The translations under genes were made by a program, and so were the position numbers. Below are positions 2,467-14,314 of a DNA stretch of 31,840 bases, in pieces (within the stretch, counting starts at the first letter, position 1; each line of letters begins with the position of its first letter). The notes beneath the pieces are model-generated. The model ran no database searches. It was not told the DNA's origin and was given only the letters and a program-made list of their open reading frames with translations. Origin of the DNA: a virus; the IMG/VR virus record IMGVR_UViG_3300042934_001343, positions 1 to 31,840 of that record; one strand, given 5' to 3'.

Positions 2467-2929
2467 ATGAACTACATCAGAGAAGCTGAAAATTATTTAC
2501 GATACTACCGTGATTTGCAACAAAGCATTAGACATGCTAACAGAATGATTGCCAAGCTGACTTGGCAAGGTGCACCCAGAGATGCCGGCGCCGTGAATAT
2601 GGATGTGACTGGCGTTAGAGCGTCCAAGCCGGTGAATACGCTTAACCAAATATATCAGCTGTAGAAGTGGCAGGAGATGCGGGAGCGGACGCAGGTTGAA
2701 ATAGATAAGGTAGAAGAGTCGCTAAGCGTGATCTGCGTGGACCCGGGCTGCGAGTGGTACCGGGGTCGATAAGCTGGAAAAGGAAGCGATTGCGGAGGCA
2801 ATAGGGTATAGCCAGACATCGAAGAAATCAGTATATGAGATAAAGAATAGGGCGATAAAGAAGTTTGCGGTGTCTTTGTTTGGCGTAGCTACATTAGAGG
2901 GATGTGAATATACGAGTTTGGCTATTTAA
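2467..2929 (+). pseudogene. Broken phage late-gene regulator (ArpU/DUF1492-like, sigma region 4-like)
   Basis: The frame starts at ATG 2467 after GGGAGGG. The first 65 codons (MNYIREAENYLRYYRDLQQS and on) match the N-terminus common in Firmicute phage late regulators. A TAG at 2662 interrupts the frame, which then stays readable: KWQEMRERTQVEIDKVEES up to GCEWYR. At the G run 2762-2765 one extra base shifts the frame. Removing it joins GCEWYR to VDKLEKEAIAEAIGYS and a C-terminal helix-turn-helix-like end, IKNRAIKKFAVSLFG, stopping at 2929. Proteins of this type are thought to activate the late promoter upstream of terminase genes. Two independent lesions argue for real decay rather than a single sequencing error. 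The 65-residue fragment might still be translated. Confidence 0.8.
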
Positions 2930-2930
2930 G

Positions 2931-2962
2931 AAAGAGCATGTATTGTTATATGCTCCTTTTTA
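2931..2962 (+). terminator. Rho-independent terminator after the broken regulator
   Basis: GAGCAT (2934-2939) pairs with ATGCTC (2950-2955) and is followed by CTTTTTA. It insulates the upstream unit from the promoter at 2972. The stem is short, so strength is uncertain. Confidence 0.55.
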
Positions 2963-2971
2963 TTTGTTATA

Positions 2972-2980
2972 TGCTATAAT
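2972..2980 (+). promoter_or_regulatory. Extended -10 promoter of the two-gene accessory unit
   Basis: TGCTATAAT is a perfect extended -10 element, placed just after a terminator and about 65 nt before the ATG at 3047. The block TTGTTATATGCT occurs twice here (2944-2955 and 2964-2975), the second copy overlapping the -10, which could be an operator repeat. Confidence 0.6.
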
Positions 2981-3046
2981 TTTACATGAAGTGATTTTTG
3001 AAATCGATTTATAAAACACTACAAATATAGTATTTGGAGAGGTTTA

Positions 3047-3787
3047 ATGAAAAAAATTACTTTTGAGAGTGTTTTATCCGTACGTAAGAATACAGCTGAT
3101 TCAATTTCAACTATTATCATAATGTTATCGATATCAATAGTAGTCATTACTTTTAGGTATGTAGAGTTATTCCACTTCAACAGGTTGAAGATCAAGTGAA
3201 ACTTCCAACAGTATAAGTTCTATTCTGAAAGTGATCTGTTTGATGTAATAGAGCTTTTATATGATTTAGTTTCGTACCCAGTTTACTCAACGCTAATGGG
3301 TAGCAAAATTTTCCAAAGGTATGATAAGAAAGTAGGTCAAAATCAGTTCAGGAATGATATAAATGGCTATCTTAAAAATTATAAAGATGGCTTTGAATTA
3401 GAAGTTAATGGCGAAATCGCTGCGGTATGTGATACGGTGATGGAGGAATTAATTAATTCTAAAGTTCCTGAATATAACACTGATAACGTTGAAGCAAAAA
3501 TTGATAGGGCTATAAAGAAATATAAAAGTAGGCATTCTAGCGATGCAGATAAAAAAGATGCGGTTAGGGATTTAGTCGATGTTTTGGAATTCATTCGTCC
3601 GGAACTAAAGGGCGTCTTATTCAAACAGGAAGAAAATGAATTATTCATTATAGCTAACAAATTTGCAATTAGACATCACAATGAATCACAGAAAACTGAT
3701 TATGGTTCGGAATTTATTGATTGGATATTTTTTGCGTATTTGTCTACTATACATCTCAGCATTAAGCAGCTTAAAAAATACAAATAA
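3047..3787 (+). pseudogene. Membrane-anchored accessory protein interrupted by one TGA codon
   Basis: From ATG 3047 (GGAGAGG upstream) to the stop at 3787 the frame is open except for TGA at 3197. The first 50 codons encode a membrane segment (STIIIMLSISIVVIT). After the TGA, 32 clean codons lead into the part starting MGSKIFQRYDKK at 3296, which has no ribosome site of its own. The whole would be about 246 residues: N-terminal anchor, then a soluble, charged, helical domain. A single base change from TGG (Trp) would explain the stop. It is the first gene of a unit bounded by a promoter at 2972 and a terminator at 4566, with a partner gene 29 nt downstream. I do not recognise the family. An abortive-infection-type membrane protein is a guess from context. 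Confidence 0.6.
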
Positions 3788-3816
3788 AATAATTAATAAT
3801 ATTATTGAGGTAATTT

Positions 3817-4518
3817 ATGTACGAAATAACCGAAGATATTAAAAAGAAAGTCCAAGAGTTTCGTTACGATACATTAGATGTTGTGGCTGAAGGGGCTGTC
3901 TCAATAATCGCATCTTTTGTAACTGATACTGTTATTGGGCAGGTTGCTCCCGGTATATGTTCGGCAGTAGTGAGTTATAAGCAGAAAAGATTTGAAAAGA
4001 ATATATTGAAGGTACTGAGTGAGCTGCAATCAAGACAGACATATATGGATAATATTATTACTACACTTCCGCAAAATTTTAATCAGACTTTAAAAGACCA
4101 TATGTTCCCTATGATTTTTGATTATTCGTCTGAAGTGAAACAAGAAGATAAAATTAAATTTATAGTTAATGGATTTGAAACAGTAATTGAAACTAGAATG
4201 GTGACTAACCAAGAAAAAATACTTGTTTATTATGACACCCTTAGTGATCTAAGTATGATAGATCTTAAATTACTGGAAAGAATAAAGATAGAACAGGTAA
4301 GCACTGATATTCTTTATCCTAAACCAGTAAAGATAGAAACCGAAGAACTTGCTATTGAAAGACAATCCTTAAATAAGTTACAAAGATTAGGAATTGTTAG
4401 TTTACCTAATCTTGCTTATGATTATGATCAGAATAATGAGATGTATTATTTAAGAGATATTGAATTTACTCAGTTTGGAATAAGGTTTTTTAACTTTTTT
4501 AAAATTAACAATAATTGA
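3817..4518 (+). CDS. Accessory protein, possible Abi-alpha/DUF4393-like organisation
   Basis: A 233-residue protein starting at ATG 3817 behind TGAGG. Residues about 20-52 form a hydrophobic, Gly/Ala-rich stretch (AEGAVSIIASFVTDTVIGQV and on) that may insert in or lie on the membrane. The middle is helical. The C-terminal third (LSMIDLKLLERI, then LNKLQRLGIVSL, then EFTQFGIRFFNFF) has the helix-helix-wing layout of a small winged-helix domain. That order resembles Abi-alpha/DUF4393 proteins, which are linked to phage exclusion, but this is visual similarity only. It is the second gene of a two-gene unit with its own promoter and terminator, is AT-rich relative to the structural genes, and is probably cargo. 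Confidence 0.6.
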   Translation: MYEITEDIKKKVQEFRYDTLDVVAEGAVSIIASFVTDTVIGQVAPGICSAVVSYKQKRFEKNILKVLSELQSRQTYMDNIITTLPQNFNQTLKDHMFPMIFDYSSEVKQEDKIKFIVNGFETVIETRMVTNQEKILVYYDTLSDLSMIDLKLLERIKIEQVSTDILYPKPVKIETEELAIERQSLNKLQRLGIVSLPNLAYDYDQNNEMYYLRDIEFTQFGIRFFNFFKINNN

Positions 4519-4565
4519 TGATAATGAGGAAAGAAGAACTGATTATAAATCCTTGATGAAATAGC

Positions 4566-4594
4566 GAAAGACCGCCAGAGGGGCGGTCTTTTAT
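4566..4594 (+). terminator. Rho-independent terminator of the two-gene accessory unit
   Basis: AAAGACCGCC (4567-4576) pairs with GGCGGTCTTTT (from 4582) around an AGAGG loop, followed by Ts. It is a strong, GC-rich stem. Confidence 0.85.
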
Positions 4595-4632: not shown

Positions 4633-4641
4633 TGTTATAAT
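4633..4641 (+). promoter_or_regulatory. Extended -10 promoter of the membrane-anchored protein gene
   Basis: TGTTATAAT fits the extended -10 consensus and lies about 40 nt after the preceding terminator. Transcription would begin near 4648, which excludes the in-frame TTG at 4616 and supports ATG 4670 as the start of the gene. Confidence 0.6.
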
Positions 4642-4669: not shown

Positions 4670-5161
4670 ATGCAGTCTCAAAACAACTCGTCAACAGGAT
4701 GTTTTAGGTCGATATTGAAGATTTCAATATGGGGTGTAATTATACTTATGGTCATTTGTGGGCTGGCATCGTCGCCTCAGGAGCACCCAAATGAGAAACC
4801 TACGAAAAATTTAAAAAGTGAATGGAGCAGAATCGAACTATTTCCTGGTGCCAAGGAAATATCAATGATCAACCCTTATTTTCGTTCTCATACTAAATTA
4901 ATTAGTATGTACGCGAAGTATGCAACGGATAAAAATTCTAGTGAAGTACGCACTTTTTATTTAGAACAGGCACAAAAAAATGGATGGATTATTGTCCAAG
5001 AAGAGTTAATAAAAGCAACGGAGAAAGAACCAAATGAGAAATTTCATATTAGTTTTAAGAAAGATGAAGGGGTATTCTTTGTAAACTACTCAGTGTTTAA
5101 AGATCTTGATGGATCAAATTTATATGTAAAAATGAACCAGTCAGTACCACCGTCTAGGTGA
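4670..5161 (+). CDS. Membrane-anchored protein of unknown function
   Basis: A 163-residue protein from ATG 4670, with GAGGGA just upstream and a promoter whose start site lies before it. After a short polar N-terminus, residues about 12-33 form one membrane segment (ILKISIWGVIILMVICGLAS), followed by a Pro/Lys-rich linker and a soluble domain. In that domain, LFPGAK at the start and EVRTFYLEQAQKNGW form a pattern often seen in small exported proteins in which a helix follows the YAT-type strand. It stands alone between a terminator and a 214-nt gap, so it is an independent cargo gene. No specific family is recognised. It is expected to be anchored in the membrane with the C-terminal domain outside. 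Confidence 0.65.
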   Translation: MQSQNNSSTGCFRSILKISIWGVIILMVICGLASSPQEHPNEKPTKNLKSEWSRIELFPGAKEISMINPYFRSHTKLISMYAKYATDKNSSEVRTFYLEQAQKNGWIIVQEELIKATEKEPNEKFHISFKKDEGVFFVNYSVFKDLDGSNLYVKMNQSVPPSR

Positions 5162-5375: not shown

Positions 5376-5954
5376 ATGAAAAATCCATTTTATGCTATAC
5401 TTGCATTTGTTTCATTAACTATTGCTGGATTTGTTTATGCATTGGACCATATTCAAAGTAACGATTCGTTGGTTGGTGCTGCTTTAGGAGTAGTAGGAGC
5501 GCTGCTTGGTGCGGCTGTTGGAGGTGGTTTTAGCGGTTGGTATAGCTATCAAGCAGGTATTCAAGTTGCAAAAGAAAACTATGAAATGCTCGATAAACAA
5601 CAAAAGAATATTTCGCGTGCTCAGTTGTTTAATCAAATTGAGTTTAGCGCAATTAAAATACATAAATGGTATGACACGGCAAAAGTAGAAGGCGGTAATA
5701 ATAAATTTTTTAGCTACGGGCAATTAGTTTATGATCAAGAATGGCATAAACATCTTGCAGTTCTTAATGATGATATATCAATAGATCATCAGGATTCAAT
5801 AATACTTTGGTTTAATGCATTAAATGACCTCAGCTTAATGAGAAATGGATATCTGATTAAAGGTGGAGATGTTGTACAATTTTTAGACGAAAATAGGGAG
5901 CTTAAAGAAAATGTCTTAAATACCCTTAAGTATTTAAGGGATTTAAAGTATTAA
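5376..5954 (+). CDS. Two-helix membrane protein with cytoplasmic helical domain, accessory
   Basis: A 192-residue protein starting at ATG 5376 with GGAGG 6 nt upstream. Two membrane segments lie at residues about 6-23 and 33-55, the second very Gly/Ala-rich (GAALGVVGALLGAAVGGGFS). They are followed by a basic, helical domain (AKENYEMLDKQQKN and on) expected in the cytoplasm. Membrane-plus-helical layouts like this occur among abortive-infection effectors, but no diagnostic motif is visible and no family is recognised. It is a monocistronic gene closed by a terminator at 5953 and AT-rich like its neighbours. A TTGACT at 5248 may be part of its promoter, though no convincing -10 is seen. Confidence 0.65.
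   Translation: MKNPFYAILAFVSLTIAGFVYALDHIQSNDSLVGAALGVVGALLGAAVGGGFSGWYSYQAGIQVAKENYEMLDKQQKNISRAQLFNQIEFSAIKIHKWYDTAKVEGGNNKFFSYGQLVYDQEWHKHLAVLNDDISIDHQDSIILWFNALNDLSLMRNGYLIKGGDVVQFLDENRELKENVLNTLKYLRDLKY
5923..5940. repeat. Perfect inverted repeat at the 3' end of the two-helix membrane protein gene
   Basis: CCCTTAA, a GTAT loop and TTAAGGG lie in the last codons of the gene, 13 nt before the terminator. It may form a tandem hairpin stabilising the mRNA end. Confidence 0.5.
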
Positions 5955-5977: not shown

Positions 5978-6004
5978 CATGCCTAAATCCAGGAGGTGAA
6001 CCAC

Positions 6005-6205: not shown

Positions 6206-7588
6206 ATGGCTCAAGAAAAGGATATTCCGGTTCATTGCGCTCACGATGATCTGGTTGATATAACAGAATTAGTACCAAACCCACGCAATCCTAACCAACA
6301 TTCTGATAGGCAAATTGAATTACTGTCTAAGATCATCAAAAACCAGGGCTGGCGCGCACCAATTACGGTAAGCACTCGCTCTGGTTTTATCGTTCGTGGT
6401 CATGGTCGGTTATTGGCAGCTCAACTGTTAGGAGCCAGCCTGGTTCCGATAGATCGGCAGGACTATGCAACTGAAGCTGAAGAATGGGCTGACCTGATTG
6501 CAGACAACCGTATTGCGGAGCTGTCTCAAATAGATGATTCACTATTGGCTAGTTTAATGGCTGAGCTAAACACCAATAATTTTGATGTGAACCTAACTGG
6601 TTTTTCGGATAAGCAAATAGATAATCTCTTAGCTGACTTTAATGCTGCGGAGGTGCGTGAAGATAATTTTGATCCAACTACGGCAGCCGCAAAAATAAGT
6701 GAGCCTATGACCAAGCCGGGTGATGTTTGGCAGCTCGGCCGGCACCGGCTCATGTGCGGTGATGCCACGGTCCTCAGCGATGTAGAAGAGCTGATGAATG
6801 GTAAGCAGGCGGCAATGATCTTCACCGATCCACCATACAATGTGAACTACCAGGGCGGTACCGGTGATAAGTTGACGATAAAGAATGACAATATGTCGGC
6901 AGGCCAATTCAACCAGTTTCTACATGATGCCTTTACCTCAATGTACGCCGTGACAGAGTCTGGTGGAGCGATCTATGTTTGTCATGCTGACTCTGAGGGG
7001 AGTAACTTCCGGGGTGCGCTACAGGAGACTGGGTGGTTGCTGAAGCAGTGCCTGATATGGGCTAAGAATCAGTTTGTACTTGGCCGGCAGGATTATCAGT
7101 GGCAGCATGAGCCCATTCTGTATGGATGGAAGCCTGGTGCAGCACATAAGTTTTTCGGTGGCAGAAAGCAAGGGACCGTTATAGAAGAAGCAGCGCCCAT
7201 TATCGTCAGACAAGATGATGAAGGGGCGCTGCTAACATTTACGGCCGGTATTCAGACTGTGACTTTGCGAGTGCCATCGTTTAAGGTCCTGCAAGCCGGG
7301 GATGATAGCTTGTCCACTGTTTGGCGCTTTGAGAAGCCGGTTCGCAATGGCGAGCATCCGACGATGAAGCCGATCGGGCTTTGTGCTAGAGCTATAGAGA
7401 ATTCCAGCCGGCCAGGCGAGATTGTAGCCGACTTCTTCGGCGGATCCGGAAGTACATTGATGGCAGCCGAGCAGACTGGGCGAACGTGCTTCTCAATGGA
7501 GTTGGATCCTGTATATGTCGAGGTGATACTTCGCAGGTGGGAAGAGTTTACCGGTCAGAAGGCTGAGCTAGTTAAGCAAATAACTTAA
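6206..7588 (+). CDS. ParB-like domain / DNA methyltransferase fusion
   Basis: A 460-residue protein, start ATG 6206 after GAGGTGAG. Residues about 10-125 are a ParB/Spo0J-type domain: ELVPNPRNPNQHS, then IVRGHGRLLAAQ (the GHGR box at 65-68), then DNRIAELS. Residues about 170-455 are an amino-group DNA methyltransferase: motif IV TDPPYN (DPPY at 208-211) precedes motif I FFGGSGST (410-417), the order of the beta class that makes N6-methyladenine or N4-methylcytosine. Fusions of this type are common in Firmicute phages, often just before the terminase genes, and probably protect phage DNA or mark packaging sites. The target sequence cannot be read from the protein. It is a full-length, intact gene. 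Confidence 0.92.
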   Translation: MAQEKDIPVHCAHDDLVDITELVPNPRNPNQHSDRQIELLSKIIKNQGWRAPITVSTRSGFIVRGHGRLLAAQLLGASLVPIDRQDYATEAEEWADLIADNRIAELSQIDDSLLASLMAELNTNNFDVNLTGFSDKQIDNLLADFNAAEVREDNFDPTTAAAKISEPMTKPGDVWQLGRHRLMCGDATVLSDVEELMNGKQAAMIFTDPPYNVNYQGGTGDKLTIKNDNMSAGQFNQFLHDAFTSMYAVTESGGAIYVCHADSEGSNFRGALQETGWLLKQCLIWAKNQFVLGRQDYQWQHEPILYGWKPGAAHKFFGGRKQGTVIEEAAPIIVRQDDEGALLTFTAGIQTVTLRVPSFKVLQAGDDSLSTVWRFEKPVRNGEHPTMKPIGLCARAIENSSRPGEIVADFFGGSGSTLMAAEQTGRTCFSMELDPVYVEVILRRWEEFTGQKAELVKQIT

Positions 7589-7619
7589 TTGGTTCCATTG
7601 AGTTAAACAAATGTCTTAA
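7570..7619. repeat. Imperfect direct repeat spanning two convergent stop codons
   Basis: AGTTAAGCAAATAACTTAA (7570-7588) and AGTTAAACAAATGTCTTAA (7601-7619) match at 16 of 19 positions. Each can fold into a small hairpin. The first holds the methyltransferase stop, the second the stop of the minus-strand gene. No T-rich terminator is seen here. Confidence 0.5.
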
Positions 7620-8713
7620 CTATTCATGTTCAGCTTTGTAATTAAATCTTTATCTTCAATTATCTTTAGAATAGTGTCTTCACTATGTTTTTGGCCTTCT
7701 AATATTGGAGTGACGATGGAGTATAGCTGGTCAGGATTAATTGAAAGCACTTTATTGTTAAACTCATTTAAGGATAAAGCTTCTTCATATGATTTTTTTA
7801 ATGCAAGGCCAACACGAATCGCATCGTTTTGGGTTAAATCAAGAGAATTTAATGCAAGAATTATAGCAGATTTAATTATTCCATAGCCTTCGGCTTTGTC
7901 AGACATGCCCTTTTCAACGGCTTTGTTATAAAGTTCTCGTAGACCAGCTACCTCCAAGTAGTCTGATTTAGTTGATGCACACTCAATTCGGAATAACATG
8001 TAATCATAGCCCTCTAGGGGGCGGCATGATTCAAGATCATTACCAAAGTGTAGCTGAGAATTTTTAACGAATAGCTTACTTTTGTCAAATTGGCTTGCAT
8101 CTGCATTAATTACAGCAAAGTAACCATTTTCTAATTCAGATCCACCATCTGGACCAGTACCACCAAACCCTTGCTGATAAACAAGATGGAGATGTTTGTC
8201 ATCTAAATTAAGAAGGCTTTGAAAACCACTAACGACGGTATTGGTGACGTTTAATACTGAGGAAAGTTGACCGAGGGTTAAGTATTTTGAAATATTATTT
8301 AAAACACCTAAAAATTCTTGAAAATAGTCTTTTTCTACATAGGCGAATAATCCAGCGCAGATTGATAAATTACCGCCACGATAAGGGATAAGATTAGTTA
8401 ATTGAAAATCGATTTTTACGCCTCTTCCTAAGGTGTTTTTATCGAGGTTAAGATTAAGCGGTCCTGCAATATATGGGAATGTTTCTGAATCCTTTGATCC
8501 AACTTTTATTTCCACGGCTGACTGGACAACTGGAGAATAAGACCTAAATAAACTACCGTCATTCTTCAAGTACATTTCAGCTAACCACAAACGAAAGTAA
8601 TGTTTATTTGCTACAAATTTAGTGCTCACTACTGTGTCTGTTGGAACTCTAGTTAGAACGTAGTGTTTAGAGTCATGGTTAAATTGCTTGCTAAACCAGT
8701 CAATAATACTCAT
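7616..8713 (-). CDS. Minus-strand accessory protein of unknown family (365 residues)
   Basis: The only long minus-strand gene in the phage part. ATG 8713 has GAGGAGG just upstream. The protein is soluble with no signal or long hydrophobic helix. It opens MSIIDWFSKQFNHDSKHYVL, then has beta-rich stretches (PYIAGPLNLNLDKN, VKIDFQLTNLIPYRGGNLSI), a Gly-rich turn GFGGTGPDGGSELENG, and a helical C-terminal half. I do not recognise the family. It lies between the methyltransferase and the terminase operon and points against late transcription. That is typical of cargo genes expressed in the lysogen, such as superinfection exclusion or defence genes. That role is inferred from position alone. Confidence 0.75.
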   Translation of the reverse strand: MSIIDWFSKQFNHDSKHYVLTRVPTDTVVSTKFVANKHYFRLWLAEMYLKNDGSLFRSYSPVVQSAVEIKVGSKDSETFPYIAGPLNLNLDKNTLGRGVKIDFQLTNLIPYRGGNLSICAGLFAYVEKDYFQEFLGVLNNISKYLTLGQLSSVLNVTNTVVSGFQSLLNLDDKHLHLVYQQGFGGTGPDGGSELENGYFAVINADASQFDKSKLFVKNSQLHFGNDLESCRPLEGYDYMLFRIECASTKSDYLEVAGLRELYNKAVEKGMSDKAEGYGIIKSAIILALNSLDLTQNDAIRVGLALKKSYEEALSLNEFNNKVLSINPDQLYSIVTPILEGQKHSEDTILKIIEDKDLITKLNMNS

Positions 8714-14119: not shown

Positions 14120-14314
14120 ATGATTAATGTTGTTGAGAACTGCGGTATAAAAAGAAAGTCTATAAAGGGATTTAAGTTAACGTGTGATAAATGCGGAGCA
14201 GAAGAGGTTGAAATAATTAACCATCGCGCCTGTGAGATGGCAGAGGACTGTAGTAATAAAACTATTGAGGCGCATTGCCTCGTCTGTGATAGTACGGCGA
14301 TATTAATTGAATAA
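14120..14314 (+). CDS. Small Cys-rich, zinc-ribbon-like protein (prophage copy)
   Basis: A 64-residue protein from ATG 14120 with GGAGG 7 nt upstream. It is 49/64 identical to the protein at 687, with all seven cysteines kept, and about 79% identical in DNA. Similarity extends into the leader (GATTCATTGGAGG here, GATTCTTTGGAGG there) and into the terminator. It sits between the minor head and protease genes, where the Bacillus skin element has the variable small gene yqbC. It lies within a late operon yet carries its own terminator, so it behaves as an inserted independent cassette. The 86 bases before it contain no obvious promoter. Function unknown. Confidence 0.8.
   Translation: MINVVENCGIKRKSIKGFKLTCDKCGAEEVEIINHRACEMAEDCSNKTIEAHCLVCDSTAILIE

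Follow-up and report, generated by a model that had tools for sequence, protein, structure and literature searches.

A low-G+C tract in the late genes of a tailed prophage appears to be a variable cargo slot, in which ORF2, a self-contained one-gene moron of the abortive-infection type, lies next to ORF1, an unrelated and decayed PDC-S32/AbiJ-like gene; we give this reading as a whole a probability of roughly 0.6. A more limited claim, that ORF2 is an Abi-alpha-like gene standing alone next to a decayed ORF1, is probable when taken by itself. The DNA analysed (the window) comprises 31,840 bases of an IMG/VR record and holds the late genes of the prophage (Table 1). A sequence-only reading had proposed ORF1 and ORF2 as an undescribed two-gene phage-exclusion system made of two unrecognisable proteins. 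Both are recognisable: ORF2 matches phrog_11520 and, weakly, Abi_alpha, and ORF1 matches PDC-S32 and phrog_20667. The defence reading of ORF2 is now better supported than it was from sequence alone, whereas the pairing and the membrane anchor that had been assigned to ORF1 fall away.

Table 1. Features of the cargo slot and its borders (window coordinates)
Feature	Position	Strand	Remarks
RinA-type late transcription regulator, C-terminal remnant	2768–2929	+	Left border of the slot; phrog_36 transcriptional regulator, E 9e-4
Intrinsic terminator, upstream	2934–2955	+	−14.5 kcal/mol, z −5.5
Extended −10, likely promoter of the accessory unit	2972–2980	+	Exact TGnTATAAT; predicted function
ORF1, probable pseudogene of a PDC-S32 / AbiJ_NTD4-like family	3024–3787	+	Family profiles and frameshift alignment
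GAGG, likely ribosome-binding site of ORF2	3807–3810	+	Read from the sequence
ORF2, intact Abi-alpha-like protein (phrog_11520)	3817–4518	+	233 residues
ORF2 residues 22–40, hydrophobic Gly/Ala-rich segment	3880–3936	+	Kyte-Doolittle 1.70; alignment A5; low model confidence
ORF2 residues 144–227, predicted winged-helix-like domain	4246–4497	+	Predicted model
Intrinsic terminator closing the unit	4567–4591	+	−18.3 kcal/mol, z −3.6
Separate accessory gene, same slot	4670–5161	+	Start at ATG 4670, 163 aa; a single hydrophobic segment, N-terminal
Separate accessory gene, same slot	5376–5954	+	192 aa; hydrophobic N-terminus; phrog_24629, E 0.0015
ParB-domain DNA methyltransferase	6206–7588		phrog_498; terminase genes beyond

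The slot stands out by composition. G+C content is 0.32–0.35 in the tract, which extends to about position 6000, compared with 0.41–0.51 in most other 1-kb steps of the window, so the unit is AT-rich (0.32) as had been claimed. Bounded by the broken RinA-type regulator on one side and the methyltransferase on the other, the tract contains ORF1, ORF2 and a further two small genes; the frame of the regulator is interrupted, with stops in all frames upstream. The terminators described earlier on either side of the unit are both present and fold well; the downstream one is supported by the folding test and is absent from the list produced by the consensus scan. The promoter-like element is likewise exact, and because TGnTATAAT occurs 4 times in the window against 1.9 expected, with 10 of 100 shuffles reaching 4, the count itself is weak evidence. 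Another copy (4633–4641) precedes the accessory gene that starts at 4670. That gene is without a convincing family match, and both it and the gene at 5376–5954 are nearly orphan. In the closest prophage relatives with sequence over this region (L030 and L027; terminase 87%) other genes occupy the slot, which indicates a variable cargo space. The cargo position suggested from the sequence gains further support from the moron-like positions of related genes in other phages and from a Gabija/Shedu neighbourhood on a plasmid, both described below.

The open frame of ORF2 is intact, and residues 19–165 of its product match phrog_11520 (E 4.8e-19), a family of single accessory genes in prophages that carries the function label ‘unknown’. 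ORF2 resembles the members of this family in size and in its conserved QEEKIxYIxNGF and YYDTL segments, but, like the protein of locus L017 (27% identity), it is one of the short forms, its linker ahead of the final motif being reduced. Its best Pfam match is Abi_alpha (PF14337, formerly DUF4393; 0.0094), which at 16.4 bits lies below the gathering cut-off of 29 bits, and PADLOC returned no match at E 1. Abi_alpha is matched by all five members of alignment A2 (best 1e-4) and by 5 of the 13 members of A5 (best 4.3e-4), the other eight having no such match at E 0.05. When A5, with its 13 ORF2-family members, was compared by hhalign with seven Abi_alpha/DUF4393 proteins, the result was 91.1% over 182 columns (E 1e-6), as opposed to 0.2% for A5 against the ORF1 family as a negative control. 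The similarity spans the middle and C-terminal parts, including a terminal FG-x-x-F motif, whereas the N terminus of ORF2 is different; both are single prophage genes of about 230–300 codons. As judged from sequence profiles, the ORF2 family is a distant sister of Abi-alpha/DUF4393. The Abi-alpha layout that had been proposed for ORF2 is therefore borne out by the profile comparison and the predicted fold, but not at the Pfam threshold.

Relatives of ORF2 were found in 3 phage records, 5 plasmids and 16 viral contigs; of 398 genomes sampled from a single Bacillota group, five had one (weakest 5e-4). ORF2 finds the orf29-like proteins of Tuc2009 directly; used alone as the query, it found nothing in close-relative scans of viral and genome contigs, where relatives of both ORF1 and ORF2 were reached by alignments only.

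The predicted model of ORF2 is moderately confident (pLDDT 69, with most of the first 50 residues below 50). Its N-terminal part and its middle are helical, the former at low confidence, and its C terminus is winged-helix-like. The hydrophobic segment that had been read from the sequence is present and lies near the N terminus. The winged-helix-like end, which had also been anticipated, aligns with the winged-helix proteins MarR, HrcA (structure 1stz, which we take to be HrcA), DtxR and MepR at Z 5–6.4, modest values that can mean a common arrangement. Foldseek at E 0.001 gave no PDB match for the models of either protein and none in BFVD for ORF2, and sequence searches against solved structures gave no credible match for the ORF1 or the ORF2 family.

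The genomic settings of ORF2 relatives bear on whether the gene serves defence or the phage itself. In Tuc2009 the relative lies between an Alt-like activator and the annotated terminase small subunit gene (terS). Two further loci have a profile-confirmed terminase small subunit behind the relative (L014 and L018), and in six others the same order was read by eye (L012, L019, L022, L023, L024 and L203). A role for ORF2 not in defence but in its own phage, as a regulator of the winged-helix type or an accessory to packaging, would explain this frequent position directly before terS in several unrelated phages, and the winged-helix-like C terminus is compatible with such a role. Several observations speak against this account, which we regard as unlikely. 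Relatives are flanked by minor head and scaffold proteins in L015 (by profile) and lie between the corresponding genes in L016 and L204 (by eye), and those of L205 and L206 are on chromosomes outside evident phage genes. On plasmid pBMV_2 of Priestia megaterium, the relative is directly upstream of gajA–gajB (PADLOC 5e-287 and 5e-231), with an annotated sduA after gajB and an Mrr-like nuclease before the relative; this Gabija/Shedu neighbourhood represents one plasmid lineage, four of the five plasmid matches being from Priestia. Moreover, none of the 80 loci fetched by the terminase of the window (L027–L106) holds an ORF2 relative, and although many of these stop short of the slot, L030 and L027 reach it and carry the other genes mentioned above. 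ORF2 also has promoter-like and terminator elements of its own. Five proteins that neighbour three other non-phage copies (Exiguobacterium, L205 and L206) had no PADLOC match.

Positions also distinguish the ORF2 family, often found before terS in the late region, from Abi_alpha itself, as repressor or replication genes surround four of the six phage Abi_alpha genes that we fetched (L207, L208, L211 and L212). The two occur side by side in one phage, G240, the portal protein of which is 44% identical to that of the window. Here (L203, 7093–9081) a true Abi_alpha gene (174 bits) adjoins an ORF2 relative (29% identical to ORF2 over 139 residues) in the opposite direction, and the pair lies between a transcriptional activator (phrog_248) and the terminase genes. 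G240 would thus have two branches of the Abi-alpha superfamily in one slot.

On the evidence of its sequence, ORF1 is most likely a pseudogene of the PDC-S32 family, an older piece of cargo in decay. The frame that follows its in-frame TGA (3200–3787) matches PDC-S32, a candidate family of PADLOC, and the read-through form matches phrog_20667 and PDC-S32 (PDLC04995, 1.7e-11; PDLC04997, 0.0013); PDLC04995 is also matched by all five members of alignment A1 of the ORF1 family. ORF1 itself has no Pfam match, and a literature search by name found no paper on PDC-S32. The similarity to PDC-S32 and phrog_20667 covers most of ORF1 and includes the conserved C-terminal helical domain, but ORF1 is frameshifted, interrupted by stops and devoid of the CGxH of most relatives. 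The gene is recognisable from 3024, has frameshifts and a stop before about 3160 and a further stop at 3197–3199, after which the open frame encodes the C-terminal helical domain with the conserved residues of the family kept. The TGA interruption reported earlier is this last stop, and at the corresponding column of alignment A4 every one of the 15 intact relatives has an aromatic residue. Decoding of the TGA as an amino acid was considered and ruled out: 6 of the 31 other genes in the window end in TGA, which is therefore a normal stop here.

ORF1 relatives are widespread, with 80 loci kept from genome contigs of many phyla. The closest are from Heliobacterium chlorum (44–46%), and among 199 genomes of the Heliobacterium phylum the ORF1 profile matched two, one of them Heliobacterium itself. 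The C-terminal part of ORF1 alone found no relatives in close-relative scans of viral and genome contigs, and tblastn against phages gave nothing. Of seven intact relatives, five match AbiJ_NTD4 (Pfam) with E values no higher than 0.0055, all below the Pfam cut-off (best 9.6e-5, 23.3 versus 34 bits), and on this basis we place the family near the AbiJ-NTD4/HEPN proteins, which are described in PMC3710099. As in AbiJ, in which AbiJ-NTD4 is fused to HEPN, the family model has a C-terminal helical bundle after the NTD4-like part; unlike in AbiJ, no HEPN domain is detectable by sequence. Compared with the HEPN-MNT structure 8xeh_B, the model scores Z 6.6 over 99 residues (rmsd 3.8), a value that ties with unrelated helical bundles. 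The catalytic motif of HEPN domains is R-x4-6-H, and the conserved stretch N-x-F-x-I-R-H of the ORF1 family is not clearly a canonical form of it.

The reconstruction of the damaged 5′ part of ORF1 relies on translated alignment across frames. Residues 30–49 of the closest relative align to 3024–3086, partly out of frame with ATG 3047 and with a stop inside, with a score of 48; 1,000 dinucleotide shuffles had a mean of 25.2 (sd 3.7) and a maximum of 43, so that none reached it. When nine relatives were tested singly with 200 shuffles each, the closest was matched by 0 and the second by 6 of the 200, and none of the remaining seven reached significance (25 to 192 of 200); in six of the nine, the best path covers 3043–3063. 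A family-average version of the test was weaker than that with the closest relative, with 1 of 60 shuffles reaching its score. For residues 1–29 of the closest relative, no counterpart could be recognised upstream of ORF1 (423 of 1,000 shuffles reach the score).

These results change the view of the N-terminal membrane anchor that the sequence-only reading gave to ORF1. Read from ATG 3047, the frame has a hydrophobic run of 2.12 (Kyte-Doolittle), which comes mostly from the out-of-frame part, and among 83 relatives only six reach 1.6, in each case through the C-terminal WIFYxYL helix. We therefore rule out ORF1 as a membrane protein; the anchor is an artefact that arises when the frameshifted gene is translated from ATG 3047. 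A pseudogene read from the wrong start can thus mimic a membrane protein and suggest a two-gene system that is spurious.

The stops and frameshifts of ORF1 and of the regulator remnant could instead be sequencing or assembly errors, in which case the natural ORF1 would be an undamaged PDC-S32 gene. In favour of this, the sequence comes from an IMG/VR contig and the damage falls in two neighbouring genes within about 0.6 kb; yet each of the 31 other genes in the window has an uninterrupted reading frame, so errors would need to be confined to the ORF1 and regulator region. Nor would errors readily explain that ORF1 also lacks, in the middle of its frame, the conserved stretch YHxxxxCGxH (CGxH is present in 12 of 15 relatives, read by eye from the alignment), or that nothing recognisable upstream corresponds to the first 29 residues of the closest relative. 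We consider this explanation quite improbable, and genuine decay of ORF1 the better reading.

The remainder of ORF1 from ATG 3296 to 3787 (163 aa) could in principle still be made and act, partnered by ORF2, as a solo HEPN-like toxin. The conserved residues of its C-terminal domain are kept, and AbiJ proteins that lack the NTD exist, according to PMC3710099. Against this, the sequence shows no ribosome-binding site before 3296, the start at 3296 cuts through the N-terminal domain, and none of the fetched loci has a solo form adjoining an ORF2 relative. Of all the readings considered here, we give this one the least weight and regard it as extremely unlikely.

Whether ORF1 and ORF2 belong together can be assessed from their relatives. 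phrog_20667 occurs in none of the 20 records with an ORF2 relative (Tuc2009 counted twice), and an ORF2 relative in none of the 29 genomes with an ORF1 relative. Among the fetched loci, 93 were positive for the ORF1 profile and 26 for the ORF2 profile, counts in which some loci appear twice (for example, L002/L020, L006/L108 and L010/L111/L141), and only the locus of the window itself has both. A genuine two-gene sensor and effector system, of which the window would hold a damaged copy, might be argued from the arrangement of the two genes on the same strand 29 bases apart, enclosed by one promoter-like and one terminator element, and from the defence-type character of both families. With no second pair in any of these samples, and with each family occurring alone in many settings, we judge it very unlikely. 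The sequence-only reading had itself held that genes not found as neighbours elsewhere would tell against a system, and in the other material searched the two families were found apart. What it had presented as an undescribed exclusion system thus comprises a pair seen, among all loci fetched, in the window only, one half of which is a pseudogene of an already listed defence candidate. Because an Abi-alpha-like gene adjoins a wrecked and unrelated gene of the defence type, the locus probably represents a site for defence cargo, as opposed to a new two-gene system. On the Methylobacterium plasmid pVL1_5 (L006, 3982–5579), a PDC-S32 relative of ORF1 lies directly behind a gene annotated as ‘abortive infection family protein’, which has no PADLOC match; BrnT and BrnA annotations follow.

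For ORF2 as a one-gene defence moron, Abi-alpha provides the analogy. Abi-alpha is ef2833 of prophage 6 in Enterococcus faecalis V583 and causes premature lysis of infected cells, an abortive phenotype known only for this E. faecalis protein; PMC6356687 reports that Idefix still adsorbs and kills, with lysis about 10 minutes early and fewer productive infections, and its authors consider whether holin timing or membrane potential is affected. By this analogy, ORF2 would be made in the lysogen from its own promoter and would be attached to the inside of the membrane by its hydrophobic N-terminal segment, from where it might sense an infecting phage through the helical middle and the winged-helix-like C terminus. 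Once triggered, it would damage the membrane or bring about early lysis, and the infected cell would die without a burst; ORF1 would no longer yield a full protein. Beyond the family link and the predicted domains, these steps (expression in the lysogen, the membrane site, a trigger in the C-terminal half and early membrane failure) are tentative, and taken together somewhat less likely than not.

More broadly, the prospects seem to us evenly balanced that phrog_11520 is an unrecognised second branch of Abi-alpha: a one-gene abortive-infection protein with a membrane-active Gly/Ala-rich N terminus and a winged-helix sensor. In phages of Bacillota it would travel as a moron, ahead of terS or between genes of the head, and on plasmids it would accompany Gabija and Shedu. 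If the ORF2 family is a working branch of this kind, genes labelled ‘hypothetical’ in Tuc2009 and in other prophages of Bacillota can be tested as defence genes. Genes of the ORF2 type are missed by current tools, as they have no PADLOC match and fall below the Pfam cut-off. The winged-helix end would, if correct, hint at the part that recognises infection.

Several other features of the window are worth recording. Its left end (1–648) is, by eye, the 3′ part of a comM/yifB-type magnesium-chelatase-like gene, and nothing ahead of the late region was recognised as an integrase, a repressor or a replication gene, whereas the upstream part of L030 seems to hold replication-type genes; the early region of the prophage of the window may have been lost. 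Two copies of a small cysteine-rich protein (about 64–71 aa, strongly similar by eye) occur at 666–881, beside the chromosomal-looking gene, and at 14120–14314, in the head module, and neither had a match in the PHROG search at 0.001. Between the methyltransferase and terminase genes, the minus strand encodes a 365-residue protein (7616–8713) with no match in Pfam, PHROG, PADLOC or NCBIfam. The corresponding site of L030 is occupied by a different gene, likewise on the minus strand, which points to a second cargo slot.
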